DNA from: a bacterium
Lineage (GTDB): Bacteria > Vulcanimicrobiota > Vulcanimicrobiia > Vulcanimicrobiales > Vulcanimicrobiaceae
DNA length: 57,301 nucleotides
Assembly (NCBI GenBank): GCA_021778415.1
Contig: JAJYCL010000019.1
Coordinates: 1-57,301, forward strand
Reading direction: 5' to 3'
Below are positions 2,871 to 57,301 of the stretch, piece by piece. The notes below the pieces were generated by a model that had not been told where the DNA came from, made no database searches, and saw only the letters and a program-made list of their open reading frames with translations. Numbering within the stretch: the stretch's first letter is position 1; each line of letters begins with the position of its first letter. The position numbers were made by a program, and so were the translations under genes.

Positions 2871-2903
2871 TTTGCTGCGATCCTGGACTAAACGCTGAGT
2901 GAT

Positions 2904-3047
2904 TTGCGGCTTTCGCCAAATCGTATTTGCGTAAATTCCACGCCTGCGACCAAGCTCCGTTGCCGGCGTTTCGCCATCTAGTCCCTTACGGAGCGCAACG
3001 ATCTGTGCCTCGCTAATGAGGTTTTCTTCTAAGAGAGAGAGCCTCCT
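2904..3047 (-). mobile_element. IS3-family orfA remnant
   Basis: In the frame that runs into the serpin-like gene, residues ENLISEAQIVALRKGLDGE and the following ELGRRRGI...IWRK match the N-terminal helix-turn-helix of IS3-family OrfA (FxEEQIxxxLRxxExG...CRxxGISxxTFYxWK). There is no orfB and no ends are visible, so it is a scar of a past insertion. Confidence 0.6.
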
Positions 3048-3102
3048 GAACGGAGCGGCCAAACACGCCATTTTCCACTCATAGTTGCCACTCGACCGCA
3101 AC

Positions 3103-3582
3103 CTAGCGACATTCCCGAACTCCATCCTTCGCGCGAATACTATGAACCATTGCCTTCGCACGTAACACCTCATCCGGCATTTGTGATGCAATATCAGCGA
3201 ACACAAATTTGTAACGCGAGTTTTCCGGTAATTTAATTTGATAATGTATTCCGTTTTTATCAACTTCTTCTCGGGAATGAAGGCCATTAATGCACAAATT
3301 TACATTCCGAGAGCTTTTAAATAACGCCGTCCGATTTTGATTAGTGACCCAGATTGTCATAACATGTTTCTTTCCCGAAATCCGATTTGCAAATACATCG
3401 TACGGGTACGCCTCAAAAGCCTGCTTCAAAGGGCGCAACGATAAAGTCCACCTTGGAGGGGCAAGGACTGATGCGGTTCCAAATGCTAAGTCATGTTTTA
3501 TGCCAAAACTGACAAGACTTCCAAGTGCACTTGCAAACGAATGAGAAACAAAAAGTAAAATAGCGAGGTTACGGATTATCAT
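3103..3582 (-). CDS. hypothetical secreted protein
   Basis: The 159-residue product has an N-terminal signal peptide (MIIRNLAILLFVSHSFASALG) and then a mixed soluble domain with four Cys-poor beta-rich blocks. I do not recognise the family. It starts 25 bases after ORF 3610-3933 and precedes the transposase scar and the serpin-like gene. Size, secretion and position fit the exported immunity-like proteins scattered through this island, but that role is inferred from context only. Confidence 0.45.
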   Translation of the reverse strand: MIIRNLAILLFVSHSFASALGSLVSFGIKHDLAFGTASVLAPPRWTLSLRPLKQAFEAYPYDVFANRISGKKHVMTIWVTNQNRTALFKSSRNVNLCINGLHSREEVDKNGIHYQIKLPENSRYKFVFADIASQMPDEVLRAKAMVHSIRAKDGVRECR

Positions 3583-3609
3583 TTATTATCTTCTCGATCT
3601 GATTAGCCA

Positions 3610-3933
3610 TCATTCCAAGCGCATTGGAATATTTATCACCGAGTCCCATGAGATGCCCTTTCTTGTAGCCAGCGGACCAAATTTTCTTCGCCCATGAAGA
3701 GCAAAGGAAACCTTTTTTGCGTCAAGGAGTAGCTGGTTAGCAATATGGTGCAAATTCCATTCGATAAACGCATGGGTTAGGCCGCGTTTTGAAGCGTTTC
3801 TTGGCAAGGGCAAGCTGACTTCACAGGATGAAGAGCTTTGCCCCTTAATTCGGCAAATCGTCGATGTCATAGAGGAGCGCGATATTTCGTATGGGATTGT
3901 CAGAAAACCGGCGAGCACGTATTTTGCCAGCAA
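3610..3933 (-). CDS. hypothetical ORF, possible toxin tip remnant
   Basis: The ORF is 107 residues from a TTG start and the frame stays open to an upstream stop near 4016. No domain is recognised. A stretch with paired aromatic and hydrophobic residues (FIEWNLHHIANQLLLDAKK) is probably helical. It precedes a secreted protein, the tip-then-partner order common here. Low confidence that it is expressed. Confidence 0.25.
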   Translation of the reverse strand: MLAKYVLAGFLTIPYEISRSSMTSTICRIKGQSSSSCEVSLPLPRNASKRGLTHAFIEWNLHHIANQLLLDAKKVSFALHGRRKFGPLATRKGISWDSVINIPMRLE

Positions 3934-4222
3934 GTAGCGAAGGTTATGCGAGAGGTCGAAAATCGCGGCAAAACGCTCCGTGCATTGAAGATAAGGGCAA
4001 ATTCTAAGCTTCAGAATTCAGGCGTCGCTTGCGCAAAGAATAGTATGGCGGAAAGCAGCTTCCTGACTTTTAATCGCGCCCCAGATGATTTGATTTTCGA
4101 GGCACGCGATTCGGCGCGCGCGATTACTTTCGACGCTCGGAAACGTCCGCCCAGAGCAGTTCTCGAGGAATCAGGCTGCATAAACCTCGTGTCTATAAAT
4201 CAAGGCCGCTCCACTCGCATAG

Positions 4223-4471
4223 CTACTTAACCAGCGTTAGGCTCGTACCGCACAGCACGAGAATAACGAGCCACGTGTAAAATTCAGGGGGTGTTCTTTT
4301 TTTACGGCTAGTTCGCAAAAATAGAAAAAGAAGAATACTTGATAGCGGAGGTAGTAACAGATAATCAAAGGGATAATTTCCGGAAAGAGGGTTAGCCCCC
4401 ATAATAATAATTGATTCTATGAGATTTAACACTGCAAATCCGCTCAAAAAAAAGTGCACTTTCCAAGGCAA
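4223..4471 (-). CDS. small three-span membrane protein
   Basis: The 82-residue product has three hydrophobic segments (about residues 5-25, 33-52 and 64-80) separated by a basic loop (RTSRKKRT). It starts at TTG and lies just after an Rhs core fragment. Small membrane proteins next to Rhs or CDI tips are often immunity proteins against pore-forming or membrane-acting toxins. Here that is context only; no family is recognised. Confidence 0.4.
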   Translation of the reverse strand: MPWKVHFFLSGFAVLNLIESIIIMGANPLSGNYPFDYLLLPPLSSILLFLFLRTSRKKRTPPEFYTWLVILVLCGTSLTLVK

Positions 4472-4513
4472 GTTCTCGTTTTCGCATCTACCGTGGTGCC
4501 CCGCTCCTCCACA

Positions 4514-4870
4514 TTAAAATATCGAAAAAATGGACCTGCCACATTGGCGGGGGGACTCGGAGTACTCGTATTTAAGCGTATGTTTTGAGCCATACGAGTA
4601 CACGTCAAAAGATGGAAACTGAGTCTTTTTCCCGCCAATCGAAACAGATCTGTACATGGATCCCGGAAACAGTGGCTCAAGGCTCGGTCCGCTGCCGCCC
4701 GGGCCGGTTGCGTCGTGGCAGAAAGCGATCTTTCCGCTTTGGTCGCGATCATGATAGGTAGCTCCCGAATACTGAGAATCAAACGGCGTGATATCCGCAA
4801 GCGTACTGAAAGACCGATCGAAGACGAGGCCTATCCCACCTAATGTACCCATCAAGGTATCAAATTCCAA
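4514..4870 (-). pseudogene. Rhs core fragment
   Basis: The segment LADITPFDSQYSG..YHDRDQSGKIAFCHDATG is the late Rhs-core block seen just before toxin tips (compare LADLTPLNSGYSE..YDDRDQNG at 13.6 kb). The last 50 residues no longer follow the core. It has no N-terminal YD repeats and no credible start, so it is a stranded piece of a former Rhs gene. It overlaps the tail of the broken immunity gene at 4852-5289. Confidence 0.55.
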
Positions 4871-5289
4871 TGTGTGACGGTCTCCGGCCGAGGAGAAGAA
4901 AAGCAGGTTATTACCATGTTTTGGTAGGCCTTCATGCTATAGCGTGCATACTCGACTCGGTCAGCAAACGTAGCGTACAAAATATGACGGCCAGGCTTGA
5001 GATTATAGAAAAATTACGATGCTTCACCATTTTTTGCAATTACCGGACCAACAATGATCGGCACTTCCTTATCCATCTGGACCGCAACATAGTAAGGCGA
5101 TTCTGCACCATAGCGGGTTGTCAAAACGGCAGACGAACCCTTTGATTTGAACCAAAGAGGCTCGATCTTAATACTGTCGGTTGGAATGATGACTTCATTT
5201 GCGCAATTTTGCGATTTCGCATGCGAAGCAATTGGCGATAATAGCAGCGACGCGCATAGAAAGAAAAATATTCTCGTTGAGGCAATCAT
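4852..5289 (-). pseudogene. secreted immunity-like protein, interrupted by an in-frame stop
   Basis: A signal peptide (MIASTRIFFFLCASLLLSP...SHA) is followed by QNCANEVIIPTD...YYVAVQMDKEVPIIVGP and then a TAA at 5014-5016. Beyond the stop the same frame continues FFYNLKPGRHILYATFADRV...THWNLIP to a TGA at 4852. Reading through gives exactly 145 codons, the length of the intact paralogue at 8219-8656. The two align end to end: CxNxVxxPTD, (Y/P)(Y/F)(Y/F)(V/I)AVxxD, IIGP or IVGP, and a shared xW(N/E)xIP terminus. Its ATG overlaps the upstream stop as ATGA. The likely cause is a nonsense mutation. Confidence 0.8.
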
Positions 5290-5489
5290 AATGTATCCAT
5301 TCCTGCAATAGAGTCGGTCAAAGAATTTATGTCGCCATTGGAATTTTTGGCAGCGATCTCCACATTTCCATGTGCCTTTCTAGGGGACGCATCCGAGCGT
5401 CGAATGTCGTCGCCTGCGACTGTACCAGATCTCAATAGCATGCAGCGCTTAACAGTCATCGCCAAAAACCGCCCAGGGCGCGTTCTCAT
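5286..5489 (-). pseudogene. C-terminal remnant of a zincin-type Rhs tip
   Basis: Only about 67 residues remain and an upstream stop closes the frame. The last 25 residues (KNSNGDINSLTDSIAGMDTL) resemble the end of the zincin tip at 8653-9774 (NLEGNRGAVTDYVAGLNPS). Both are followed by paralogous secreted proteins through the same ATGA overlap. This is therefore the stump of a related toxin whose catalytic part and Rhs core are gone. Confidence 0.55.
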
Positions 5490-5588
5490 CGATTGGTTGA
5501 AGAGGCATTAAACTTAGGGCTAAACCGCGTGGGGTACGAATGGTTTCTGGCCATAACCGGGCCAGCTTCAAAACCTAGGCGTTCTACG

Positions 5589-6194
5589 TTATAGATCGCC
5601 GTTGAAAATTTGAACCGCGCGAATAATCGCGGCAAAACATTCAAGGTTTTTGCTCGGGTCGCTAACGCGTATATCAATATCCTCATAATTGGCGAAAATC
5701 GAAACTATTGTGTCTAATGAAAGAAGCAGCGAGTGCGGTGGTACGTATGAAACCGCACTCTCTTCTTCCTGAAGCGTTCCATCGACCCATTCATCCAAGC
5801 GTGTCTCCAGGTTCGCTGCAACAAAGAGATCGGTTGCTCCCAATTGATACATGGCTGCGACAAGGGCTTCACGTGATCTCGGAATCACATTCGTTAGTGA
5901 GCCGAACGATAAGATTAGATTATCTGGTGATTTCGGTTTAGGGTTCTTGTCGTCATGTTCAAACACCGTCCAACCATCCACGGCGTCGCGCAACCGGGCG
6001 ATTGTCGCCTCGTCGATGGTAGGAGTTTCAATCACAACTCCCGAGCCAGGGAAGCTCGCTACTATTAGCGCAGCGATCTCGGCGACAAGCTTTGGAGGTG
6101 ACTGCGCAAGCGATCGGCCTGGCCCTTCGTTTCCAGATCCGCATCGTTCAAAATACATTCGTGTTTGCGATAGGTCTACTAATTTCAATCTCAT
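5589..6194 (-). CDS. hypothetical cytosolic protein, candidate immunity protein
   Basis: The 201-residue acidic product has no signal peptide. Alternating hydrophobic and charged segments suggest an alpha/beta fold. I do not recognise the family. The first 25 residues and a central D-x-L/Y-I...R-x-A...D-x-(F/Y)-x-x-A block faintly resemble the 162-residue protein at 11406-11894, so the two may be distant relatives. It lies between an IS3 scrap and a toxin-tip stump. An immunity role is a guess from context. Confidence 0.45.
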   Translation of the reverse strand: MRLKLVDLSQTRMYFERCGSGNEGPGRSLAQSPPKLVAEIAALIVASFPGSGVVIETPTIDEATIARLRDAVDGWTVFEHDDKNPKPKSPDNLILSFGSLTNVIPRSREALVAAMYQLGATDLFVAANLETRLDEWVDGTLQEEESAVSYVPPHSLLLSLDTIVSIFANYEDIDIRVSDPSKNLECFAAIIRAVQIFNGDL

Positions 6195-6398
6195 CAGGTC
6201 TCAGCCTTTTCGGAAGTGTCGGCGCTATGCGATCGGTATCGGAAGAAACTCAGGGATAACAACGGGCTCCGGAATTATGCCGCCTTTCACGAAAGGCTAC
6301 ATGAAAAAGCGGGTATTCTCCTTTGGGTTGAGCGATAAGTGGAGTCTGTGCTGCCGGCAGGTGCGCCTTATGAATTGGAGCAAAAATTGCCAAGACAT

Positions 6399-6488
6399 CC
6401 TCGCCGAAACCATTCACCGGCATTTAAAGCGAAGGTGGCGCTGGCCGCACTCAAGGGTGAAAAGACCGTCGCCGGGACCGATATCCGC
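6399..6488 (+). mobile_element. IS3-family (IS2-like) orfA remnant
   Basis: The plus-strand frame encodes RRNHSPAFKAKVALAALKGE followed by KTVAGTDIRK. This matches the start of IS2/IS1400-type OrfA proteins (RRxxSPxFKAKVALAALKGEKTxAEL). It breaks off after about 30 codons. Bases 6195-6398 hold nothing else recognised. Confidence 0.65.
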
Positions 6489-6538
6489 AAGGCACCTCGA
6501 TCTTTGCCGCAATCGTTGAATTGATTAGAGCTGCCTTT

Positions 6539-6883
6539 TCATTCTTCCCAGTCGCCAAGCCCGTAGAACGGAAATGTGCCATTTTTTAACTCGTGTTCCT
6601 TTTCGTTTCGCCAATTTTCATAACCACTTCCGTATGGTATTCCCGCTATGCTAAATGAAAAAAAACCTTCGTAAAAATATTTACATTTTCTGGCATCGCG
6701 AAGTGATTCACAGACCACTATGTTTTCAATTTCCTCGCGCTCTTCAGAGCTTAAAGAGTGGAGATAGCCCTTCACTAACCATTCATCGGTTATCGCCGAT
6801 CCGATACGCCCAAGCGTCATTACGCCAAAGCGCTTCCCGGATTTCGTTCGAACGCAAAGCGCAACTAAATCTTCCATTTGCAT
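6539..6883 (-). CDS. candidate immunity protein for the adjacent Rhs nuclease-like tip
   Basis: The 114-residue acidic soluble protein begins MQMEDLVALCVRTKSGKRFG. I chose this ATG because GGGAG lies four bases upstream; the frame is open to 6958, but that extension overlaps the toxin gene. It starts 10 bases after the tip gene ends. An acidic small partner after a basic nuclease-like tip is the classic toxin/immunity layout. The family is not recognised. Confidence 0.55.
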   Translation of the reverse strand: MQMEDLVALCVRTKSGKRFGVMTLGRIGSAITDEWLVKGYLHSLSSEEREEIENIVVCESLRDARKCKYFYEGFFSFSIAGIPYGSGYENWRNEKEHELKNGTFPFYGLGDWEE

Positions 6884-6893
6884 ATTTCTCCCG

Positions 6894-8218
6894 TTATGGT
6901 TTGCGTGGACTATTTCTTGGTCCGGGTTTAAAGTCGTTTTTACCGTGCGTTTTTTCACCCTCCGGATTTACATTAGTATGGGAACCATCTGGATGTTGGA
7001 CATCCCACTCCCATTCGTTGCCATATTTATCTTTATATCCACCTCGATTTCCCCTGTGGGAATATCCGTCTCTCGATTTCGGCAGTTGAAATATAATGTC
7101 ACCCTTATGCGCTCGTTGCACCGGGGATTGCGAGATCTGCACGGTACCGTCGTTGTTGTAGACCGTGGACGAGGAGATGCTCGTGGGATCGGTCACCGAA
7201 AGTTTGCGATTGAGCGTATCGTAGGCAAGCGTCCAGGCGCCGACGCCGTTGTTATAGGTGAGCACGTTGCTGTGCGCGTCGTACGACAGTACAGTTCTTA
7301 GACGGAGGTAGCCCGCCGTGGTTTGCACCATGGGAAGTTCAACGGCGACAGTATTGCCATTCGTATCGTAGGCGTAATCCGTCTCGTTCCCGTGTGCAAC
7401 GGTTCCGGCAATGATAGCGTTCTGAGATTCAACGCAGCCGACGTCACCAGCCAATGCCTTTCCGTCCAAGCGCTGGTTTGTGTCACGCGTTGACTCTGAT
7501 CGTACTCCCATATGCGGGCATGGCCGTCGGAATCGTTCATGTGCGTCGTACCGCTGCCAATTCCCGAAAACGTCGTCGTAATGAAGTTCTGCATACCGCT
7601 TGGAAGCCCATACTGCAAGGCCTGCTGCACCGTCGAGGTATCGTTCGGCGTGAAATTCACATTCGCAGTTTGCGTGATTGAAGATATCGGTCTCGATCCG
7701 ACGTAGGTGAAATTCGTGATGTCGCCATCGATCGCATTGCCGCCGTTGGCATACGAATACTGCTCAGCAATGGTCGGTGCGTTTGGATTTCCCGGACGAT
7801 CGACTTCGATGAGGTTGCCGGCCGCATCGTAGGAATACGTGGTAAGTAAACCATCCGGGCGACGGATCGAGGCGAGTTCCGGGAACGCTACGCCATTGAA
7901 TTTCGCAAAGATGAGCAAGAGATCTTGGCCATCCGTATTGACGACATCGATGCTCGCTAGGTTATTCGCCGAGTTGGCATTACCGCCGACGAATGCATAG
8001 TTAAAGACTAACATCCTGTTGTAATTACGCGATTGAATCGCGCCAACGCGGCCGCAGTAACCAGCAGGCGTGCCACAAGACGCATACGGCGTTTCAACAT
8101 TGTAGCGTGTACCGTTTTTCTTCGTCCAAAAATGGCCGTGGCCGTCCGCCGTGTAATCGTACCGTCCACCACTGGTTAAATCAGACTGACGCGACTTTTG
8201 CAGAGCAACCCTAACATT
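6894..8218 (-). pseudogene. Rhs core plus nuclease-like C-terminal tip, frameshifted
   Basis: The frame opens directly after the stop of the upstream immunity gene with no start codon. It encodes YD-repeat core (ASIRRPDGLLTTYSYDAAGN, DSDGHARIWEYDQSQRV) up to about 7430, then must change frame to continue as YAYDTNGN...LAYDTLNRKLSV. The C-terminal 70 residues form a basic tip with GNEWEWDVQHPDGSH..VNPEG and a KPGPRN end. It recalls compact colicin E3-like or related polymorphic toxin nucleases (EWDxQH core with Asp and His three apart), although the second E3 Glu is not obvious. The 5' part appears to have been displaced when a newer tip cassette was inserted upstream. Confidence 0.65.
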
Positions 8219-23932: not shown

Positions 23933-23938
23933 GTGGCG

Positions 23939-24361
23939 CCCTTCGAGACGCACGCTTCGCGTGCTCCTCAGGGTGACGGGGGCCCTTCGAGACGCGCACT
24001 TTGTGCGCTCCTCAGGGTGACGGTGTTCTGTCATGCTGAGGAGCGATGCGGAGCATCGCGTCTCGCCCTTCGAGACGCGCACTTTGTGCGCTCCTCAGGG
24101 TGACGGGGGGCCCTTCGAGACGCGCACTTTGTGCGCTCCTCAGGGTGACGGGGGCGTGCTCCTCATAGTGACGGTGTTCTGTCATGCTGAGGAGCGATGC
24201 GGAGCATCGCGTCTCGCCCTTCGAGACGCGCACTTTGTGCGCTCCTCAGGGTGACGGGGGGCCCTTCGAGACGCGCCCTTTGGGCGCTCCTCACGGTGAC
24301 GGGGGGGCGCTCCTCAGGGGCCCTTCGAGACGCGTGCTTCGCACGCTCCTCAGGGTGACAG
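23939..24361. repeat. REP-like palindromic repeat cluster 1
   Basis: About eight copies of a 40-base element lie head to tail, some inverted. Constant flanks are CTTCGAGACG on one side and CTCCTCAGGGTGAC on the other, and a short variable hairpin lies between them. Stems here include GCGCAC/GTGCGC, GCACGC/GCGTGC and GCGCCC/GGGCGC, so both arms change together. The cluster fills the gap between convergent genes. Reading frames through it are artefacts. Confidence 0.95.
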
Positions 24362-31578: not shown

Positions 31579-31647
31579 ACCCGAATACGCGCAAACGAAG
31601 AATCTGCCCTCGTTCGTCTCACTTCTATGTCTCCGTCCCGCACCTCC

Positions 31648-31962
31648 CTGTCATGCTGAGGAGCGATGCGTAGCATCGCGTCTCGAAGCATGAGGAGCGA
31701 TGCGTAGCATCGCGTCTCGCCCTTCGAGACGCGCACTTTGTGCGCTCCTCAGGGTGACAGGGGGCCCTTCGAGACGCACGCTTTGCGTGCTCCTCAGGGT
31801 GACAGGGTGCTGTCATGCTGAGGAGCGATGCGGAGCATCGCGTCTCGAAGCACCATCAAAACGGAGCACGCGAAGCGTGCAACATTGGCCGCGGCCCTTC
31901 GAGACGCGCACTACGTGCGCTCCTCAGGGTGACGGGGGGCGTGCTCCTCAGGGTGACGGGGG
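31648..31962. repeat. REP-like palindromic repeat cluster 2
   Basis: Mixed orientations of the same element. Inverted copies read TGTCATGCTGAGGAGCGATG with a GATGC-GTA/GGA-GCATC hairpin. One long version continues CATCATCAAAACGGAGCACG with a second hairpin. It fills the recG to chemoreceptor gap. Confidence 0.95.
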
Positions 31963-34848: not shown

Positions 34849-34913
34849 CGCAGATCACATCACGCGTATCTCGTGGAACGGCAAGCCTTATCGCCCGGAG
34901 GCTTTCAACGCGC

Positions 34914-35425
34914 TGTCATGCTGAGGAGCGATGCGGAGCATCGCGTCTCGCCCTTCGAGACGCGTGCTTCGCGTGCTCCTCAGGGTGACAACGTGCTGTC
35001 ATGCTGAGGAGCGATGCGGAGCATCGCGTCTCGAAGCATCATCAAAACGGAGCACGCGAAGCGTGCAACATTGGCCTGGGCCCTTCGACCCTTCGAGACG
35101 CACGCTTCGCGTGCTCCTCAGGGTGACAACCTGCTGTCATGCTGAGGAGCGATGCGGAGTATCGCGTCTCGCCCTTCGAGACGCACGCTGCGCGTGCTCC
35201 TCAGGGTGACAGGGGGCGTGGTCGTCAGGGTGGTGGTGTTCTGTCATGCTGAGGAGCGATGCGTAGCATCGCGTCTCGAAGCATCATCAAAACGGAGCAC
35301 GCGACGCGTGCAACATTGGCCCGGGCCCTTCGAGACGCGTGCTTCGCACGCTCCTCAGGGTGACAGGGGGCGTGCTCCTCAGGGTGACAGGGGCCGCGTG
35401 CTTCGCACGCTCCTCAGGGTGACAG
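34914..35425. repeat. REP-like palindromic repeat cluster 3
   Basis: The largest cluster has about nine units in both orientations, including two long versions that carry the extra GCACGCGAAGCGTGC hairpin (one mutated to GCACGCGACGCGTGC). It sits between the start of the GIY-YIG gene and the end of hisIE. Confidence 0.95.
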
Positions 35426-38870: not shown

Positions 38871-38932
38871 GCAAGCGCTCACGTCGGTTCGGTCATCTCC
38901 AATCCATGTCCTACTAGCTTTCCGCGCCGCTG

Positions 38933-39263
38933 GCCCTTCGAGACGCGCACTGCGTGCGCTCCTCAGGGTGACGGAGCTCCCTGTCATGCTGAGGAGCGAT
39001 GCGAAGCATCGCGTCTCGAAGCATCATCGAAACGGAGCACGCGAAGCGTGCAACCTTTCCCCCTGGCCCTTCGCCCGCCGACGGGGGCCCTTCGAGACGC
39101 GCACTGCGTGCGCTCCTCAGGGTGACGGGGCTTTTTGTCATGCTGAGGAGCGATGCGTAGCATCGCGTCTCGAAGCATCATCGGAACGGAGCACGCGAAG
39201 CGTGCAACCTTTCTCCCCGGGCCCTTCGAGACGCGCACTGCGTGCGCTCCTCAGGGTGACGAA
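38933..39263. repeat. REP-like palindromic repeat cluster 4
   Basis: Elements with stem GCGCAC/GTGCGC and loop TGC alternate with inverted long versions carrying GATGC-GAA/GTA-GCATC and CACGCGAAGCGTG hairpins. The cluster reaches to within about 10 bases of the next gene's start. Confidence 0.95.
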
Positions 39264-39271
39264 AGGGGGAG

Positions 39272-45466: not shown

Positions 45467-45896
45467 TTATGGCTGAGGAGATTCGCCGCGATGGAGCTCG
45501 CTACTGCTTGAGGTGATCTGATATGAAGCCTCAACGCAGAACACGGGGAGCCAAGATTATGGTCTATGGGGATTTTTTTTGCTTCGTTGCATCAGCGATG
45601 TTATTAGCGCAACGTACGAATCTCGGCGTCCTACACAATCGCCCTGCCGTCGCATTTTCATTGAGCAACGAATTTTTCCGTTAGTAAGAAATATGAAATG
45701 CTGCGAGATATACAGTCGCTAAAAAAAATTTTGCTAAGATTGGTTCGAGACTCCGATTATGTTCGATCGAGAGGCGTGGGTCCGCAAGCGGTTAGAGGAC
45801 GAATGGAAGAATGATAAACGTTAGGCACTACGTTTCTGGCACGATCGTTATAACCGTTACACAAAATGGCGTGAACACGTCAAGCCTTGCCGCGCC
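45467..45896. other. gap without a supported gene, leader-distal flank of the CRISPR array
   Basis: A 53-codon plus-strand frame (45523-45684) with an AGGTGA upstream and a 21-codon frame (45759-45824, MFDREAWVRKRLEDEWKNDK) are present. The second may be the start of an eroded gene, since FWHDRYNRYTKWREHVKP follows in another frame. I see no convincing gene. Confidence 0.4.
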
Positions 45897-46461
45897 GTCT
45901 CATTCTCCGAAAGACGCATTGGTAATATCATCGTATCGGTAGAGTGGCGAGCGGTGATCAAGTCCTACTTCCCGCAAAAAAAACGCATTGGTGATATCAT
46001 CGGGCCGGAAATGTAGCCACGGGTGCCGCGGTCTTACTTCCCCAAAAAACGCGTTGGTGATATCATAAACGTGAGCGTTTGTGCAATGGCGAGAATGTCT
46101 TACTTCCCCAAAAAACGCATTGGTGATATCATTACAGTTCGCCGAACGCGAATTGGAACTAGTCTTACTTCCCCAAAAAATGCATTGGTGATATCATGGA
46201 AAAGCGGGATGTCCATTTGATAACGCGGTCTTACTTCCCCAAAAAATGCATTGGTGATATCATCAAGAGGGCACCCACGAGCTTCGGGGACCGGTCTTAC
46301 TTCCCCAAAAAATGCATTGGTGATATCATCTCCGCATCGGTTGAGTCGCCACGAGTTGAGTCTTACTTCCCCAAAAAATGCATTGGTGATATCATATAGG
46401 CCACCCAATGCGCCACTTAACCCAAGTCTTACTTCCCCAAAAAATGCATTGGTGATATCAT
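45897..46461 (+). CRISPR. type II-C CRISPR array, 9 repeats, 8 spacers
   Basis: The repeats are 36 bases, beginning GTCTTACTTCCCCAAAAAAT and ending GCATTGGTGATATCAT. Starts are 45897 (degenerate, 35 nt), 45962 (degenerate, 39 nt with three extra bases), 46031, 46097, 46162, 46228, 46294, 46360 and 46426. Spacers are 30 nt except one of 29. The five copies nearest cas2 are identical and the ones farthest away diverge, so new spacers enter at the cas2 side. The tracrRNA pairs with the repeat's 5' part, which fixes crRNA sense as the plus strand. Each repeat ends TG-A-TATCAT, an extended -10 element, so crRNAs are probably started inside the repeats as in other II-C arrays. Translations through the array are artefacts. 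Confidence 0.97.
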
Positions 46462-46518: not shown

Positions 46519-46857
46519 TCAGAACAAGACAAGCTGTTTTGGAGGCTCTACTGGCGCTTTTTCTGGCTTTTCGCCACCTCTGTAATGGCGGATGTCTACA
46601 AATTGGCGGTCCGTCATCTCGAAGATAAGGACCCATCCATGCCCTGGCGGTATGAGCCGCTCAACTACCTTCTCGATGGTTGCTAAACGCTCGCGAGTCC
46701 GAGCATGAAAACCGTAAAATGAATACTGCACCCTCTCGAATCCAAGATTCTGGAGATTATGGCGGAAGCGGTTAGCGAGCTTGCGCTCATCGCTAGTCCG
46801 GACGGGAAGATCGAAACCTACCATCAACCACATGTTTCGATATCGTTCAGCCGCCAT
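46519..46857 (-). CDS. cas2: CRISPR-associated endoribonuclease Cas2
   Basis: The 112-residue product starts at the ATG behind GAGGAGCG and has the ferredoxin-like core (NMWLMVGFDLPVRTSDERKL, RFRHNLQNLGFERVQYSFYG, GWVLIFEMTDRQF). FDLP carries the usual Asp. Cas2 bridges two Cas1 dimers in the spacer integration complex. It overlaps cas1 by 34 bases and is the last cas gene before the array. Confidence 0.95.
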   Translation of the reverse strand: MAAERYRNMWLMVGFDLPVRTSDERKLANRFRHNLQNLGFERVQYSFYGFHARTRERLATIEKVVERLIPPGHGWVLIFEMTDRQFVDIRHYRGGEKPEKAPVEPPKQLVLF

Positions 46858-47726
46858 CGCTCCTCGTCGAACGCTATAGATGGGCATTCGGTATCTCCCC
46901 CTTTTAGAGCGCTTCGCCATGCCATACTGATGGATCGCATTGCGTCGATCACAGTGGCTCGATCGTCTTCGAGCCGGAGCATTCCGCCCAGATGCGCAAC
47001 AATCGCCCTCTTACAGTCTGGATTAAGGTCGTCTTTCACACAATCGTGGAGCCGGACGGCTATATCAACGACGGCTCGAAATGGCTCCATAAGATCGTCC
47101 ACGAGAGCGAACGCGTTCCTTGCGCTCGAATGATGGATAGGGAGCGCCGGATGCAAACCGATCGCAACCGCAGCGCGGGCCGTGGCCGCCCTTGCGACCG
47201 CGTAGCCATAATTTAAATGGTGATTTAACGGCGAGTCGTCTCCGCGTCGAAATGAGGGGCCAAACATGGCAGGGAAGTATGCCAGCGCTGCGCTTGCCTC
47301 GCGATTCTCCGGATCGCCAGATCGGACATTTTTCACCCACTTGCGCACCCCGGCGTCATCGAGATTGAAAAGACGAAGCGCCTGGGCCTGAAGCGAGACC
47401 TTTACTCGCACAACTGAGGCCCAAAAGCGCTTTTTACAGGGGAGGCTAGTTTGAATTTGTTCTGCAAGCACCGTCGGATGCGCATTTGTGCCTGAAATTG
47501 GCAAAAACATCCCAGACGGAATATATTTCTCATTACATACGAGAACTGCCACACCAGCATCAGCCGCCCAGCGAAGAAGTCCGACACCAAGTGAACCCGA
47601 GCGGCTACTGACAACAAGAACGTCGATGCCTTCAAGCGGCGTCCGCATTTCCGTCTGGAGATCCCTAAGAAAACCCCGATCCTTCACGAGCATTGCTCCC
47701 TCGCTCGCAATATCGACGATCCGCAT
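46824..47726 (-). CDS. cas1: CRISPR-associated integrase Cas1
   Basis: The 300-residue type II Cas1 has an N-terminal beta domain and a C-terminal helical domain. The metal-binding set is visible as ENREASAALAYFPAMFG (Glu ~143), GLHPALPIHHSS (His ~198) and FALVDDLMEPFR (Asp/Glu ~210-214). It integrates spacers with Cas2. The ATG overlaps the cas9 stop (TAATG). Confidence 0.96.
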   Translation of the reverse strand: MRIVDIASEGAMLVKDRGFLRDLQTEMRTPLEGIDVLVVSSRSGSLGVGLLRWAADAGVAVLVCNEKYIPSGMFLPISGTNAHPTVLAEQIQTSLPCKKRFWASVVRVKVSLQAQALRLFNLDDAGVRKWVKNVRSGDPENREASAALAYFPAMFGPSFRRGDDSPLNHHLNYGYAVARAATARAAVAIGLHPALPIHHSSARNAFALVDDLMEPFRAVVDIAVRLHDCVKDDLNPDCKRAIVAHLGGMLRLEDDRATVIDAMRSISMAWRSALKGGDTECPSIAFDEERWRLNDIETCG

Positions 47727-50700
47727 TACGCGCCTTTAAGTCTGATTTTTCGGCGAAAATCGCCGAGGACGCCAACGACGCCGAGTTCTACCGAAGAATA
47801 ACGCTCAAGGAGCGTTTGCAGACTCGGCTCCGCATCAACATCTTTCCCCGAATTTGCATCGACCAGTCCAAGTAGTAGGCGCGCTCCACGCATGCGCAGG
47901 CTCGAAATAATGCAAATCTTCCCGTCGAGCAGAAGCGCATCTCGCTTATAAATTCGGTTCGACGGTTTCGACGCCAGGAATTCTCGCAGGTCTTCCTGGT
48001 TTGCGATAACTTCCAATAATTTAAAAAGCCGTACCGAAAGCGGTGAAAGGCTTTCGATTACAGCGCAAAGATTTTCTTCAGATTTCCATTGACCATATAC
48101 CAGCCCGCGGCGTTTGTCGCAGGGGCCAAGGGGAAGTTTGCTTTCGCCACGGTCGGGCTTATTGGGCAAAAGGGTGAATTTACTAAAGTTCTCCCATTTA
48201 CAAATTGCGTTGAAAATTCTGCGAAACACGTCTGTGAAACTTCCGTGTAAACACTCCCACGGTTGAGTACATATCTCGCCAGTTTCAGACGGTGGACGCG
48301 GGCTAAGATTGGGACCAACTTTACCGTTACAGCGTAACCAAAATTCAGATTTTTGGCTGAGCAGGTTACGGAGGTTTAAAAAGCTTGGGGTGGTTTCCCC
48401 GAAATATTTGTCAAATATCTGGCGAAGGCGCTCTATTTCCTCCGGCGCACATTTCAGGGAGCCAATGGATTGATTTTCCGAAAGACGTTTCAGAAATTGC
48501 CGTGCTCGGTCGAGCGCCTTAGTAGCGTCTTCTCCGAGAATCGGCATTGACGACTTCGTAATCGACGCGGGGAATATCGCGCTAGCTTTCTGTCGCTTAA
48601 CGCCTGACTGCGGGTAGATATTTTCATAGTGTAAATCGCCTGGAACGCTGATCGCACGATCGCCATGCTCACTCAGCTGAATTTTCGGCCGGTCGGCCTT
48701 GTGGCTTGTGACAATCGCATAATATGCGTTGCGTACGTCCGTAGGGAAGCTCGCCCACACGTCGATATTTTCAATGGCAAAATTCTTTCCGGACGCGGCT
48801 TTCTGCAAAAGCGACCGACTAAGAACGGCGGTAATTAGCGCGTCGACAGCATGATGCCGACCATCCGTTACCCGCTCCCCGGCCTTGTTCTTTTTAATAT
48901 CTTGCAGGCCCCATTCCCGCCGCAAGGTATTCGTGAGCTCACCACGCGAGGCAAGTACGTTGGTCTGCACTTCACAAAGTGGCCTCAGCCACTCTAACAA
49001 CAATTTCGCGGCCCAAGACGTTGACGCGAGTTGATCCCCTAGGAATTTTGCGCGCGCCGTTTCAGGATCTAGGATCATTCGTCGTTTTTTAGGCGGCATA
49101 AAACTCGTCGCTTCACGAATTCTTTCCCACCGGGGTGCATCGGTCGCAAAGGCAGCAAACGGAGTCTGGGAGTCGGTTTTCTCCGAGTTGCATCTCGAAC
49201 ACGCGAGAGTAAGATTATTCATTTCAGATCCGCCGCCAAGCTTCCTCGGGAAGATATGCTCGACCTCGACGCTATTTCCATCAATGGCGTCCTTCATCGT
49301 AATTTCGTAAAGGCCGCAGTATGGGCAGAGCCGAGACTCCCGTTCACCACACTTGTAGAGTTCTTTCCATAAGCGGTATCGACGTATTCTTTTCCATTGA
49401 GGGTCGTCTTTGACCAGTTCGTCACGTACAGATCTAATTTCGTTCTTGGCCTCATCATTCAATTTCTCATTCCTAGCGATCCGCTTTAAAAGTAACGCTC
49501 GGCCGCGATCTGAAAGGTGCAATTGCCTTGTCGTTTCAACCACGACCCGAGTTGGACGCCCAAATCGTTTGATGATTTCATTGACAACCCGCTGCGTCTG
49601 GTTTAATGCAATATGAACCGAAATATTGGGAATTCTGCCATATCGTTTTTCAACGTCCATCACTAGCCGGGACGGGCCGAAGCTCTCGCTATACGGGCCA
49701 GTCCGTCGCACGGGCGGCTTCGGGTACATTCCATTAAACGCCGCTCCATAGTACGGCAAACGGCCCGCGTCGTATTCCCGCACCGCAAAGTCATCGGGCG
49801 GATTATCTTCGATGATCGCGTTAAACGCCGCATTTTTCGCTGCATACGGTTGGATACTTTCGATACGCGCCAGCATTTCATCAAGCATCGTTGTGCCGAA
49901 AGGAATTGATCCGCGTGGCGGCGCCACCATTAAGTTACGAACCTCGTCACGAATTTCCAAAGGAACCGGAGAGAAATCTCGATCTCCGCCCCGAATTGGC
50001 GCCTCGAATATTTTTAGAATTTCTTGGCGCAACTCGGCCCAATTGCTTGCACTACTCTGTGATTGCTCCCGTTGGTTTGCAATGTCGCGTTCGGTCATCC
50101 AGGCCCCTAGCGAAGCAAATGGATGGCCAACCCAATCCGCAGGTTTGCCGCTTGCATTGACTCTATTAAAGATTGTTGATTCCGGCAAGCGAAGAATATC
50201 GATTGCTTGTTTCCATGTAAGTCGTGTTTGGCTCAATAGTGCGTCGAGAAATTGGCGCCGGAGCGAACGTTCGCCGGAGGTTGCGCCAACGGGAATATCG
50301 CCATCAAGATCAATCTCGATACCGCGTGCATCGTAGGCGCGCAGGTTCCAAGCTTTTTCCCAAGCGAGATACCGTTGCGCGCGAGGATCAAATCTTGCAA
50401 CACGGTCCTCGGTCGGCAAGTATGGGCAGGGCCACCGAACAACATTGTATGGTGCGCGTTCAAATACTAGCGCATGCAGATCGTCCCAGGATAGTTTCGA
50501 CATTCCATACTTCGCAAACTCATCGGCCTGCGTCATGCGAATCCGCTCGAATTCTTCCATAACAAGCTTGCGGCTTGTTCGCCCCGGCAGACTCTGCGCC
50601 CCGACTCGCGCTAATGTCTCGTCATCTAGTTTTTTCCAATGAGCAGCGCGTGAATCTTTAGTGGCTTTCCTAGCGCGAATCGGCGCATAAGGATGGCGCG

Positions 50701-51427
50701 CGTGAAAATTTTTAGCTAGCCAGATGCCTAGACCGCCCTTCCCGCACTCCTCTGCAACTACGTCCTCACGATTCAAGCAATCGGCGAGTATCGATGCATC
50801 GCTTTCCTCAGTTTCTTTCGTCGCTATGGCCGGAGTCTTTTTTGTTTTTCCAGATTTGCGAGACTTCGGAGGTGCGCTTTCCTCGATGTCCTCAACAAAT
50901 CCATCGTCAGTTAGAAGCGTTCCGCGATTGACGAGTAATGAAAAAAGGGCGCGAGCGAGCCTCGCGCGATCATACTTACTCGATGCATCAAGCGTCTTCG
51001 ATGCGCAGGCTGCTCGCGCCGCAAACACAGACTCTTTTCTCAACCATTCGTCTCTATTTGACGGCGATGACTTAAACGGATCGATCCAGCTTACTCGAAC
51101 TCCCCGTCCGTGCCCGTTCGTTCGTATCAGGTTTAAGGACTCGGAAAGCATACGCAGCAGCCTGCCACGTCGAGCGCGATTGCGTTGATGCGCCCTTGCC
51201 GTGTTGATTTTTCTGCGCCGGGCGCTATGCAAGGTTTCACCGAGACTCTCGCCCATATGTGCCTTGTCAATCGCGCGCCCATCGGGAAAAAGACGCGACC
51301 CCATAGCGAGGAGTCCGGTGGCTCGATCGCTGTCTTTGGGATCGACGGCGAGAACGGCCCAGCCGAGCGAATTCGTACCGATGTCGAGTCCCAACGCATA
51401 CGGCTGAGGGGAAAACGAAGCTTGCAT
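47726..51427 (-). CDS. cas9: type II-C CRISPR effector nuclease Cas9
   Basis: The protein is 1233 residues. RuvC-I is YALGLDIGTNSLGWAVL (Asp15), followed by an Arg-rich bridge helix (HSARRRKINTARAHQRNRAR). RuvC-II is RVVVETTRQL (Glu ~628). The HNH domain has VEVEHIFPRKLGGGSEMNN (His ~724) framed by two CxxC knuckles (CPYC, CSRC), which suggests a zinc site. RuvC-III is GRHHAVDALI (Asp ~859), and the last ~270 residues hold the PAM-interacting part. All catalytic residues are present. With no csn2 or cas4 this is subtype II-C, larger than the common ~1050-1100-residue members. The first 46 codons are duplicated just upstream. Confidence 0.97.
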   Translation of the reverse strand: MQASFSPQPYALGLDIGTNSLGWAVLAVDPKDSDRATGLLAMGSRLFPDGRAIDKAHMGESLGETLHSARRRKINTARAHQRNRARRGRLLRMLSESLNLIRTNGHGRGVRVSWIDPFKSSPSNRDEWLRKESVFAARAACASKTLDASSKYDRARLARALFSLLVNRGTLLTDDGFVEDIEESAPPKSRKSGKTKKTPAIATKETEESDASILADCLNREDVVAEECGKGGLGIWLAKNFHARHPYAPIRARKATKDSRAAHWKKLDDETLARVGAQSLPGRTSRKLVMEEFERIRMTQADEFAKYGMSKLSWDDLHALVFERAPYNVVRWPCPYLPTEDRVARFDPRAQRYLAWEKAWNLRAYDARGIEIDLDGDIPVGATSGERSLRRQFLDALLSQTRLTWKQAIDILRLPESTIFNRVNASGKPADWVGHPFASLGAWMTERDIANQREQSQSSASNWAELRQEILKIFEAPIRGGDRDFSPVPLEIRDEVRNLMVAPPRGSIPFGTTMLDEMLARIESIQPYAAKNAAFNAIIEDNPPDDFAVREYDAGRLPYYGAAFNGMYPKPPVRRTGPYSESFGPSRLVMDVEKRYGRIPNISVHIALNQTQRVVNEIIKRFGRPTRVVVETTRQLHLSDRGRALLLKRIARNEKLNDEAKNEIRSVRDELVKDDPQWKRIRRYRLWKELYKCGERESRLCPYCGLYEITMKDAIDGNSVEVEHIFPRKLGGGSEMNNLTLACSRCNSEKTDSQTPFAAFATDAPRWERIREATSFMPPKKRRMILDPETARAKFLGDQLASTSWAAKLLLEWLRPLCEVQTNVLASRGELTNTLRREWGLQDIKKNKAGERVTDGRHHAVDALITAVLSRSLLQKAASGKNFAIENIDVWASFPTDVRNAYYAIVTSHKADRPKIQLSEHGDRAISVPGDLHYENIYPQSGVKRQKASAIFPASITKSSMPILGEDATKALDRARQFLKRLSENQSIGSLKCAPEEIERLRQIFDKYFGETTPSFLNLRNLLSQKSEFWLRCNGKVGPNLSPRPPSETGEICTQPWECLHGSFTDVFRRIFNAICKWENFSKFTLLPNKPDRGESKLPLGPCDKRRGLVYGQWKSEENLCAVIESLSPLSVRLFKLLEVIANQEDLREFLASKPSNRIYKRDALLLDGKICIISSLRMRGARLLLGLVDANSGKDVDAEPSLQTLLERYSSVELGVVGVLGDFRRKIRLKGA

Positions 51428-51610
51428 TGCGGCGTACCTTTCAATTATTCGGAAAAAAGACGTGATCCCATAGCGAGGAGTTCGGTGGCTCGATCGCTGT
51501 CTTTGGGATCGACGGCAAGAACAGCCCAGCCGAGCGAATTCGTACCGATATCGAGTCCCAGGACATATGGCTGAGGGGCAAACGAAGCTTGCATTGTGGC
51601 GTTCCTTTCG
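51278..51610. repeat. 167-bp tandem duplication covering the cas9 5' end
   Basis: Copy A (about 51445-51610) and copy B (about 51278-51443) are direct repeats with a period of 167 bases, about 92% identical. Each holds a ribosome-binding site, an ATG and the first 46 codons of cas9. Copy A ends in TAA just before copy B starts. Confidence 0.93.
51445..51594 (-). CDS. 49-residue Cas9 N-terminal (RuvC-I) micro-ORF
   Basis: The ORF runs from an ATG preceded by GAAAGG and reads MQASFAPQPYVLGLDIGTNS, then LGWAVLAVDPKDSDRATELL, then AMGSRLFSE and TAA. It repeats Cas9 residues 1-46 with only three amino acid changes. Among the ten differing codons seven are silent, more than expected if the copy were drifting freely. 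It contains the whole RuvC-I strand pair with its catalytic Asp. The stop lies 17 bases before the cas9 ATG, so cas9 translation may depend on this ORF as a leader. Alternatively it may be a recombination scar from a related cas9 allele. Confidence 0.6.
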   Translation of the reverse strand: MQASFAPQPYVLGLDIGTNSLGWAVLAVDPKDSDRATELLAMGSRLFSE

Positions 51611-51618
51611 GTTATGAT
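51589..51618 (+). promoter_or_regulatory. predicted tracrRNA promoter
   Basis: TTGCAT (51589-51594) and TATGAT (51613-51618) are separated by 18 bases on the plus strand, giving a start near 51625. The -35 box is the complement of the micro-ORF start codon region. Confidence 0.55.
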
Positions 51619-51624
51619 GTTATT

Positions 51625-51741
51625 GAGAGAACGTCGTTCTTGGTTTTTTCAATCGGGGAAGTAAAGTAAGATAAGGTTGCTGCGAGACGGCCGCAAGATA
51701 CCGACAATCGAGGCCTCCTTTCGGGGAGGCTCTTGCTTTTT
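51625..51741 (+). ncRNA. tracrRNA, divergent from cas9
   Basis: The anti-repeat lies at about 51648-51672. GTAAGAT with the two preceding A pairs with repeat bases 1-9, a 5-base AAGTA bulge follows on the tracr side only, then GGGG pairs with CCCC and TTTTTT with the repeat's A run. AUAAGG follows directly, as in known type II tracrRNAs. A stem (TTGCTGC...GCCGCAA) and a terminator hairpin (GCCTCC-N6-GGAGGC then TTGCTTTTT, 51713-51741) complete it. The exact 5' end is predicted, not seen. Confidence 0.85.
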
Positions 51742-52059
51742 CACTGCGCCGTTAAAATTAGCTTTCGTGAAATCGATCTCGAATCCCAATGTGGCGCCAA
51801 TTTCGCGCAAGGCCAAGATATCGCGCTGAACCGATCAACGCATGCGGCGCAATCGAGCACGCCATCGCTCAGCAGCGTAACGAGCAACCAGGATATGCGC
51901 AAAAGGTGCGCATTCGAGGCGTCACGACGACGCCCCGATCCCTCATGCGTGAGATCGACAAGTGTGGCCACGAGGGCCCTCCAAGACATGTTCCGGCTCT
52001 GGTGCCGCCGTTCCATCGGAACGGACGAGTTCCTCTGCCATATTGCGGGAACGTCGTAA
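51742..52059. other. gap without a supported gene
   Basis: Several short frames cross this stretch on both strands, the longest on the minus strand about 100 codons, but none has a recognisable domain, a good start or convincing codon use. It separates the tracrRNA terminator from the primase-nuclease gene. Confidence 0.4.
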
Positions 52060-53880
52060 TCAATGTGGACTAGTTAACACCACAAGTGCATCGTTGGCTA
52101 CTTCTGCGATGGATTCGATGGGATTGGTGAGCCAGGCGATGGCGAGAATGACGTCTTCTCGCGAGCACGCTTGCTTCGAATTGCTCGCTTGCAACGCTGC
52201 GTCGACGAGAAGCATGGCGGCATCTACGGTGAGATGCGGTGCGTTTTCTGCTCCGCCTTCTTCTGCTGCCGTTCGCTGGGCATTCCAGCCCTCGCGCTGC
52301 AACAGTGCGGCGATGGTCTTCACACGTTTGGCTTGCCCGTGTTGACGTTGCCAGAGGAGATCGCCGAGCACATCGCTTGCGTACCCGGGAACGAGAATCG
52401 TTGCGCGCAATTCCACTGGGTTTGCGGCGACGTTGAGGAGCGCGACGAGATCCGATGTGGTCAGCGCGGTGACGCGGTGCGTTTGCAATTCACTCAGCAG
52501 TTCGGATTCATCGGAAAACGCTGGGCCGACGATTACGCCGTACTCGGCATGCAACTCGGCAATTTCTTTTGCGACTTCGGCGCAATCCGGCTGCGTAACA
52601 ATCGTTTTTGCCGTTTTACATTCGATCGCGACGCGATAGCCGAGCGGACCGAGGAGCGCATCGGCGACGCCGTCGGCTTGATCGTGGCCGCCAAGATGCG
52701 TGGCGAGAAAACCGAGTTGTGCAAATGCATCGCAGACGGCGATTTCAAATGCGGCGGGATCATCACCGGTGGCCGTGCTTGTGAGGCGATCGCACAGGGC
52801 TTGTGTTTGCGCTGCATCGGCTGGCGCACTTTGCGGCGTAAGATCGGGCCAATCATCGGCCGGCTCGTTAATACGGAAGTTGCGCTGTTCATCTTGGATG
52901 ATCGGCGATTTGCGGCCTCGCCCGATGGCGCGGGCGATATATTCGATTAAGGCGCTGTAGACGTATTTGCGCAGCGTCGTGGCGGGGATGAGCCCGCGTT
53001 TGATGGCCTCGGCACACAGCGTTTGTGCATCGCGGGCAATACCGTCGCTGAGGATTTCGATAGCGGCGTTGATGATACGGCCGCGCGGTTCGGGCGTGTG
53101 GCCTGAGGAGATGGCGATGGTTGCCTGAGGCAACGTTTGCGCGCCGATCTGCGCGAGGTGGTGTGCGAAGAGATCGCCATTGGCATCGAACCATCGAGAA
53201 AACGTTGCCGCAGTGGATACCACGGCATCGACGGTGGCGAGTTCATTCCAGGCAATCGGCGTGCACATCGGCAGCGACGATGCGCCGCGCACACTATAGG
53301 GGACCGCGCTATAACGGCCGCAGGCGTTGCTGGCGACGTGGATGTGAACGCGATTGGGATCGTGCGTATTCGGTTGATTGCTTAGCAACGTTGGGTGCGC
53401 GGCGACGAGAGGATTGACAACGCTATGCAGCCACGCGCGGACGGCGACGGCGTACGGTGCATCGGCGAGCGGAATCCAGAGGGCGATGCCGCCGATACCA
53501 TCGACGAGTGGAATGGCCGCGATGTGCTGGCGGGAGAGCGCTTCGCGCAGAATCGTTGCCGCTTGCCGAACGCGCGGCCACGGAACATCGCGCGGCTCGA
53601 TGAGAATGCGCGCGAAACGGAGGCGCTCCTCATCGCCGATGAGTCCGGCCCACGAGTGAAACTCGATTGCATCGAAGCGATGCACACACCACAAGAGTTT
53701 CTCTGCGCTCAGCGGCACATCGATGATGGCAAAATGCGCCTGGCCGTGCAGGCCGGGCGGAAAATTTGCGTACACGATGGGTTCGCCGGCGAATTGCGCG
53801 GCGATCAAGGGCCCAGCAATTTTATAGTGGGCGAGAACATGCGGTAAAAGAGCCGCATCATCAAATTTGCGAGCTTCCAT
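52060..53880 (-). CDS. dead LigD-type primase domain fused to Mrr-type nuclease
   Basis: The protein is 606 residues. Residues ~10-220 follow the LigD polymerase/primase domain step by step: LLPHVLAHYKIAGPLIAAQF, AIEFHSWAGLIGDEERLRFA, VPWPRVRQAATILREAL, GGIALWIPLAD, RVHIHVASN...AVPYSVRG, TPIAWNEL. The metal-binding residues are gone: the family FDLDP is ILIEP (residues ~92-96) and the third Asp in FIDYL is His181. Residues ~268-340 look like a winged-helix (HARE-type) linker. Residues ~375-480 are a restriction-type fold (FEIAVCDAFAQLGF...QADGVADALL...YRVAIECKTAK), giving a D-ExK site at about D403-D407, E420 and K422. It probably binds DNA ends or hybrids through the primase-like part and cuts with the nuclease part. 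I place the start at the ATG at 53880. It may be a stand-alone defence gene. Confidence 0.8.
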   Translation of the reverse strand: MEARKFDDAALLPHVLAHYKIAGPLIAAQFAGEPIVYANFPPGLHGQAHFAIIDVPLSAEKLLWCVHRFDAIEFHSWAGLIGDEERLRFARILIEPRDVPWPRVRQAATILREALSRQHIAAIPLVDGIGGIALWIPLADAPYAVAVRAWLHSVVNPLVAAHPTLLSNQPNTHDPNRVHIHVASNACGRYSAVPYSVRGASSLPMCTPIAWNELATVDAVVSTAATFSRWFDANGDLFAHHLAQIGAQTLPQATIAISSGHTPEPRGRIINAAIEILSDGIARDAQTLCAEAIKRGLIPATTLRKYVYSALIEYIARAIGRGRKSPIIQDEQRNFRINEPADDWPDLTPQSAPADAAQTQALCDRLTSTATGDDPAAFEIAVCDAFAQLGFLATHLGGHDQADGVADALLGPLGYRVAIECKTAKTIVTQPDCAEVAKEIAELHAEYGVIVGPAFSDESELLSELQTHRVTALTTSDLVALLNVAANPVELRATILVPGYASDVLGDLLWQRQHGQAKRVKTIAALLQREGWNAQRTAAEEGGAENAPHLTVDAAMLLVDAALQASNSKQACSREDVILAIAWLTNPIESIAEVANDALVVLTSPH

Positions 53881-54092
53881 AGCGTGGTTGTCGCCAGCGT
53901 ATTCGCTTTGGCCTGCCGCCAACGGCCGAGCGACTCGGGCATTCGATCGGCCGCTCACGTCGCGGCAAGGGTCTCTCTCGCAAAGACATCGATTCGGTGG
54001 TGCGCGAATTGCGTGGGCCGTCGGCAAGTTGGTGACGAGCGATGCGGCGTTTTATCGTCGCGCGTTTTCTGCTCTCACGGTGATCGACGTTC

Positions 54093-54588
54093 GCGCCCTT
54101 CGAGACGCGCACTTCGTGCGCTCCTCAGGGTGACAGCATACTGTCATGCTGAGCCCTTCGAGACGCACGCTGCGCGTGCTCCTCAGGGTGACAGGGTTCC
54201 GTCATGCTGAGGAGCGAGCGAAGCGAGCGTCTCGAAGCATGAGGAGCGATGCGTAGCATCGCGTCTCGAAGCATCATTACAATGGAGCACGCGAAGCGTG
54301 CAACATTTTTTGCGGCCCTTCGAGACGATGTCATCCTGAGCGAGCGAAGCGAGTCGAAGGGCTCAGGGTGACAGGAGGGGCCGCGCCCTTTGGGCGCTCC
54401 TCAGGGTGACAATGCTTTCTGTCATGCTGAGGAGCGAGCAAAGCGAGCGTCTCGAAGCATCATCAAACGGAGCACGCGTAGCGTGCAACATTTTTTGCGG
54501 CCCTTCGAGACGCGCCCTTTGGGCGCTCCTCAGGGTGACAGGGGGCCCTTCGCGACGCTCGCTTTGCTCGCTCCTCAGGGTGACAGAG
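54093..54588. repeat. REP-like palindromic repeat cluster 5
   Basis: About nine units between divergent genes. Besides the usual stems it holds variants with GAGCGAGCGAAGCGAGCG, where the inner arms no longer pair simply, and a composite GATGTCATCCTGAGCGAGCG form. Bases 53881-54092 before it show no gene. Confidence 0.95.
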
Positions 54589-54642
54589 GGGGAATATGGG
54601 GTTGGATGGAGATTTGAATAGGGTGAGCGTTTTTGGGAGTGC

Positions 54643-56951: not shown

Positions 56952-56979
56952 GTTGCGTCGTGCCGACCCTTTCGGGACG

Positions 56980-57301
56980 ATGAAATCCTGAGCAAGCGCC
57001 CTTCGAGACGCGCACTACGTGCGCTCCTCAGGGTGACAGAGGCCCTTCGAGACGATGTCATCCTGAGCGAGCGCCCTTCGAGACGCGCACTGCGTGCGCT
57101 CCTCAGGGTGACAGGGTGCTGTCATGCTGAGGAGCGATGCGTAGCATCGCGTCTCGCCCTTCGAGACGCGCACTTTGTGCGCTCCTCAGGGTGACGGGGG
57201 CCCTTCGAGACGATGTCATCCTGAGCGAGCGCCCTTCGAGACGCGCACTGCGTGCGCTCCTCAGGGTGACAGGGTGCTGTCATGCTGAGGAGCGATGCGT
57301 A
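56980..57301. repeat. REP-like palindromic repeat cluster 6, runs off the window
   Basis: About eight units with stems GCGCAC/GTGCGC (loops TAC, TGC, TTT) and several half-units ending GATGTCATCCTGAGCGAGCG. The cluster continues past the end of the sequence. Confidence 0.93.

Follow-up and report, generated by a model that had tools for sequence, protein, structure and literature searches.

The 606-aa protein encoded towards the right-hand end of the window, i.e. the whole stretch of 57,301 nucleotides that was analysed, is best explained, with a rough probability of one in two, as belonging to a so far undescribed family of putative anti-invader nucleases, in which the cleft of a pseudo-polymerase would act as the sensor controlling a PD-(D/E)XK nuclease. 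Its recurrence beside CRISPR and restriction genes, sometimes with a protease of its own, makes an antiviral defence role of this protein family probable.

Domain layout and active-site residues

The protein derives from a single minus-strand open reading frame, with its ATG at position 53880 and its stop codon at 52060-52062, and the following features can be placed on it:

52060..53880, minus strand: gene of the 606-aa pseudo-PrimPol / Mrr-FokI-type nuclease (open reading frame and Pfam matches)
53131..53880, minus strand: LigD-type primase-polymerase domain, residues 1-250, with substitutions at the polymerase catalytic residues (PF21686, E 3e-22; 2iru, E 4e-27 with the family profile)
53593..53610, minus strand: motif I, RILIEP, residues 91-96, against HFDLDP (first Asp changed to Leu/Ile/Met in 20/20, second to Glu in 17/20)
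53482..53502, minus strand: motif II, DGIGGIA, residues 127-133, against SGSKGxH (His lost in 20/20, Asp127 in place in 13/20)
53326..53346, minus strand: motif III strand, HIHVASN, residues 179-185, with His181 replacing Asp (13/20) and Asn185 kept (20/20)
52846..53097, minus strand: conserved winged-helix-like stretch of helices, residues 262-345 (mean column identity of 57% in alignment A5, no family match)
52411..52803, minus strand: PD-(D/E)XK nuclease of Mrr/FokI type, residues 360-490 (Mrr_cat above cut-off; FokI cleavage domain, E 0.01)
52615..52674, minus strand: nuclease active site D403...E420-x-K422 (D403 and E420 each in 37/37 sequences of nuclease alignment A4, K422 in 35/37)
52063..52398, minus strand: conserved helical C-terminal region, residues 495-606, of no known family (alignment A4)

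Alignment A1 comprises 20 fused homologues, and alignment A4 covers the nuclease half in 37 sequences. Pfam recognises LigD_Prim-Pol (PF21686) at residues 58-238, with an E-value of 3.2e-22, and Mrr_cat (PF04471) at residues 374-481, with an E-value of 1.2e-6 and 29 bits against a cut-off of 21; as both exceed their curated cut-offs, these matches are more than chance. The first-pass annotation had described a full-length LigD polymerase-like domain, and the A1 profile, which also matches four other LigD polymerases, covers residues 27-290 of the 303-aa M. tuberculosis PolDom (2iru, E 4e-27), so that the domain is nearly full length. The same annotation held that a predicted structure without a primase fold would speak against it. 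The sequence homology to solved PolDom structures, which bears on this point, is strong, and structure prediction from the sequences of the window protein, L033 and L034 reached a mean pLDDT of no more than 33 for the full length and 40 for the nuclease alone, too low to give a usable fold.

Regarding the nuclease, the FokI cleavage domain is the sole PDB match of the A4 profile and a marginal one (E 0.01), but the signature GxxxxHLGGxxxPDG...Y.V....K is convincing; together with the Mrr_cat match, they identify a PD-(D/E)XK nuclease of the Mrr/FokI kind, of unspecified subgroup, whose cleavage activity is predicted. Its D-ExK site had been called intact-looking, and the three residues D403, E420 and K422 are indeed present. 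Between the two domains, a winged-helix-like linker had been proposed: the helix pattern and the strong conservation of residues ~262-345 stand, but this segment matches neither a Pfam family nor, convincingly, a structure among PDB profiles, and the winged-helix label is therefore unproven. A HARE-type helix-turn-helix, suspected here from the pattern, is absent among the Pfam and PDB profile matches and was rejected. Besides, the Pfam search of the protein recognised no modification-reader domain.

For the polymerase-like domain, residue numbering and roles were mapped from PMC3898472 and PMC8656161. The replacement of the three metal-binding Asp residues, read initially in the window protein, extends to the family: the triad (Asp137, Asp139, Asp227) is intact in 16/16 ordinary LigD polymerases of the phylum and lost in 20/20 fused homologues, the equivalent of Asp137 being Leu, Ile or Met in all 20, that of Asp139 Glu in 17/20 and His, Arg or Ser in the others, and that of Asp227 His in 13/20 and Asp in 0/20. 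In motif II, the Ser, Lys and His are all replaced in the window protein, and among the homologues the Ser172 equivalent is Asp in 13/20 and the His178 equivalent Ala or Thr in 20/20. Homologues with a restored triad, named beforehand as the mark of an ordinary polymerase, do not occur in the family; the 16 triad-keeping LigD polymerases form a separate clade from it in the tree, with a support of 100/100. Being found in all aligned copies and coinciding with a separate clade, the loss of the triad is a family property rather than a recent decay. In the same line, pairwise dN/dS values lie at ~0.03-0.45 in all four segments of diverged pairs, and at 0.21-0.45 in the pseudo-polymerase segment, a 98%-identical pair having too few changes to be judged in this way; these values, well below one, indicate that selection preserves the dead domain as well as the nuclease. 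The alignments support a domain that is dead as a polymerase, next to a nuclease that looks intact.

The end-binding residues have gone as well. In PolDom, the 5'-phosphate pocket is formed by Asn13, Lys16 and Lys26 (PMC3898472), and Arg53 is the junction residue; the equivalents of Lys26, Arg53 and Phe63 (5'-phosphate pocket and ds/ss wedge) are lost in 20/20 fused homologues, and the position of Asn13 falls before the first residue of the window protein. With the pocket lost, the earlier proposal of a sensor for ends or primers finds no support. The same residues bear on whether the protein could be an accessory factor of non-homologous end joining, as its homology to the LigD PolDom might suggest. 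Such a role was rejected and is close to refuted: besides the lost end-binding residues, no Ku is found in the host genome (G000, 96% complete), nor in G082, G084 and G035, the host has no other LigD polymerase, and Ku, taken as a negative control in 24 carrier genomes, lies within 10 kb of copies in 0/20 cases.

What is retained outlines a different cleft. The equivalents of Asn231 and Tyr241 are kept in 20/20 homologues, that of Arg244 in 17/20, and an aromatic residue stands at the Phe64 position in 19/20. Judging from the alignment, the cleft of the main clade is re-formed by a set of residues that is itself conserved (Glu 17/20, Asp 13/20, His 13/20, Asn 20/20, Arg 17/20). The conservation of these replacements is also in favour of a pocket that would be changed rather than dead, in which Glu95, Asp127 and His181 would build a new metal or ligand site for another chemistry, such as nucleotidyl transfer or hydrolysis; nevertheless, in the alignments, protease-associated and some divergent members lack the Glu95/Asp127/His181 set and yet persist, which makes this reading quite improbable.

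Distribution and transfer of the family

The search for the same architecture and its neighbours, suggested by the first-pass annotation, revealed a real, selectively maintained and recurrent fused family, present in 38 genomes, all among the 117 genomes of one class, out of 149 genomes of the phylum that were searched. This count leaves aside matches of ~25% identity, which are ordinary LigD polymerases, and a restriction of the family to one class is not proven, other phyla having been scanned by short exact patterns only. No full-length relative of the protein was found in plasmids, phages and viral contigs. The number of copies reaches ~9 in one genome (G122), with several in G093 and G124, many of them split or broken, and in genus g37, among others, the polymerase-like half and the nuclease half are encoded by two neighbouring genes.

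A 1,897-bp segment is 98.3% identical between G082 and G084, two genomes whose rpoB genes are 78% identical. The identity starts 65 bp before the start codon and stops within the last codon, with abrupt ends and unrelated flanks, in which a 460-aa ISL3-like transposase (L036) and a TnpB-like fragment (L035) were recognised by eye from the translations. What passed between the two genera, and recently, is essentially a single gene.

Such a transfer raises the question of a selfish or mobile single-gene cassette, whose nuclease would spread its own gene in a homing- or transposon-like manner, the defence genes nearby being fellow cargo of foreign-DNA islands. The multiple copies, the decayed ones among them, the patchy distribution and the sharp ends of the transferred segment beside insertion sequences or unrelated DNA are all in keeping with this reading. 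However, the junctions of the L035/L036 pair showed neither terminal inverted repeats nor target duplications, the copies within a single genome have for the most part diverged and are spread over the tree instead of resulting from a recent burst, and the movement is explicable by the adjacent insertion sequences. A mobile cassette is therefore held to be unlikely, although common hot spots for foreign DNA, and not a common function, could account for some of the island signal, which weighs against the preferred reading of an anti-invader nuclease.

Neighbouring genes

As the first-pass annotation had stated, the gene lies beside a CRISPR locus, the start of cas9 being 0.63 kb away. The locus comprises:

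47726..51427, minus strand: neighbouring Cas9-type protein, 1233 aa (open reading frame list, named from sequence features)
46824..47726, minus strand: neighbouring cas1 (PF01867 match at 47055-47249)
45889..46461, no strand assigned: CRISPR array of 9 repeats, ~66 bp apart

Between cas9 and the gene, on the plus strand at 51650-51745, the sequence GGGGAAGTAAAGTAAGAT resembles the complement of the CRISPR repeat; next come a hairpin, GCCTCC...GGAGGC, and a run of T residues, and the ensemble was read by eye as a probable tracrRNA. A tandem duplication of 167 bp (51282-51448 and 51449-51615, 90% identical) spans the 5' end of cas9 and the DNA preceding it. REP-like dispersed repeats form many clusters in the window (23937-24361, 31644-31962, 34906-35425, 38930-39269, 54091-54591 and 56968-57301), one of them just upstream of the gene; a small conserved gene, suspected upstream of the start codon, was not found among relatives.

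Across 24 carrier genomes (48 loci, 72.8 Mb), cas1 lies within 10 kb of a copy in 3/18 cases (P 2e-3) and C5-methylases within 5 kb in 3/12 (P 1e-4), whereas N6/N4-methylases, at 1/21, show no significant association; the Poisson tests used treat related genomes as independent, so that these values are indicative. The three cas1 loci are that of the window, L053, where cas3 is directly divergent from the copy, and L054, where an array of more than 50 repeats stands beside a broken copy. At L054, the array (2626-6900) has at least 56 repeats with a spacing of ~72 bp, and adjoins cas1, the broken copy and a frameshifted M4 gene. One genome, G053, carries seven cas1-like genes on seven contigs, an unusually high number that may reflect casposons or several CRISPR systems. 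Functional coupling to the Cas9 of the window as a general rule was rejected, since only 3/~48 copies are near cas1, in three different arrangements. Elsewhere, the copy of L050 has a type III methylase gene and one of res type as its immediate neighbours. Only ~7/~48 copies have an obvious CRISPR, restriction-modification or methylase neighbour, most neighbours being unrelated and not conserved, and a universal conserved neighbour, sought across the copies, was not found.

The methylases bring in the possibility of a restriction enzyme proper, in which the pseudo-polymerase and a helix-turn-helix would read sequence or modification, in a type IIS- or type IV-like manner, sometimes with a cognate methylase. 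Besides the FokI-like nuclease match, a C5-methylase located directly downstream of the copy and on the same strand in L063, and others near L049 and L064, argue for it. Nevertheless, the methylase of L049 has its own NgoMIV-type enzyme and that of L064 its Vsr, ~45/48 copies have no C5-methylase nearby, and the window copy has neither a PF00145 (C5) nor a PF01555 (N6/N4) methylase near it, its genome containing no C5-methylase and a single N6/N4-methylase, on another contig. This alternative consequently appears doubtful.

An unexpected association concerns M4 metallopeptidases (PF01447), as all six M4 genes of the 24 carrier genomes lie within 3 kb of a copy (P ~1e-12, from the same indicative test):

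L051:5286-6329, M4 metallopeptidase gene beside a copy
L054:10474-11488, M4 metallopeptidase gene beside a copy
L059:8306-9334, M4 metallopeptidase gene beside a copy
L065:7526-8698, M4 metallopeptidase gene beside a copy
L066:6034-7041, M4 metallopeptidase gene beside a copy
L068:8002-9021, M4 metallopeptidase gene beside a copy

In L059 and L066, the start of the protease gene is a few bases at most from the stop of the polymerase-like gene, and in L051 the protease gene overlaps the start of the fused gene. The linked proteases keep the HExxH motif, and the gene of G093:C2 is frameshifted like the copy that it adjoins. In the whole class, eight M4 genes were counted; of the two that are unlinked, one belongs to G027 and the other, which is frameshifted, lies near the end of a contig in G106. 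M4 genes are lacking in the window's genome, whose copy must therefore work without the protease.

The claim of an undescribed single-gene defence system was thus only partly right. No PADLOC 2023 model matches the protein itself, neither PADLOC nor the literature searched yielded the pseudo-polymerase/nuclease architecture, and some neighbourhoods point to defence; however, the halves are separate genes in some genomes, and the M4 protease is a genetic partner.

Proposed mechanism and comparison with known systems

In the preferred reading of an anti-invader nuclease, a former LigD primase-polymerase domain would have lost its polymerase chemistry and 5'-end binding, and its re-formed cleft (Glu95, Asp127, His181, Asn185, Arg198 and the aromatic residue at the PolDom Phe64 position) would recognise nucleic acid or a nucleotide-like ligand. 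The winged-helix-like segment might then pass control from the cleft to the Mrr/FokI-type nuclease, which would cut DNA, perhaps only once dimerised, as FokI cuts after dimerisation. In some lineages the halves are separate genes, and where a copy adjoins the intracellular thermolysin/protealysin-like protease, this M4 enzyme might activate, release or remove the nuclease, or be a second toxic effector. Protealysin, an intracellular relative of this partner, cleaves RecA and FtsZ (PMC9505478).

Going one step further, the family could tentatively be seen as a defence system of a new type: a dead end-joining polymerase would sense foreign DNA or a nucleotide signal, and a linked M4 protease would turn a FokI-like nuclease either on or off, the solo gene of the window being the minimal form. 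Enzyme domains that have lost their activity serve repeatedly as sensors in immunity; the reuse of a LigD repair polymerase as an inactive sensor was not found in the libraries and literature searched. As the family is common in one class, has moved between genera and, over part of its range, shows a tight link with a protease, this pseudo-polymerase/nuclease/protease idea is directly testable.

Compared to known systems, the family is homologous to the LigD PolDom (PF21686; 2iru) across almost the whole domain and keeps Asn231, Tyr241, Arg244 and the aromatic residue at the Phe64 position, but differs by the absence of the Asp triad, the motif-II Ser/Lys/His, the 5'-phosphate pocket and Arg53, by the fused nuclease and by a host devoid of Ku. 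With the Mrr-type (PF04471) and FokI cleavage-domain nucleases, it shares the order of the PD-(D/E)XK motifs and the GxxxxHLGGxxxPDG...Y.V....K signature, whereas its similarity to FokI is marginal (E 0.01) and its N-terminal part matches no Mrr or FokI recognition domain. The winged-helix-fusion type IV restriction enzymes (PMC11037411) likewise combine a helix-turn-helix-like segment with an endonuclease and are solitary genes; unlike them, the family has no Pfam helix-turn-helix match and no recognised modification reader, and possesses an additional pseudo-polymerase domain. Finally, although it is absent from the window's genome and neighbours a pseudo-polymerase/nuclease instead of the usual inhibitor gene, the partner protease resembles the protealysin-like M4 metalloproteases (PMC9505478) in having no evident signal peptide, the HExxH motif and a short N-terminal PPYxLEAL motif.
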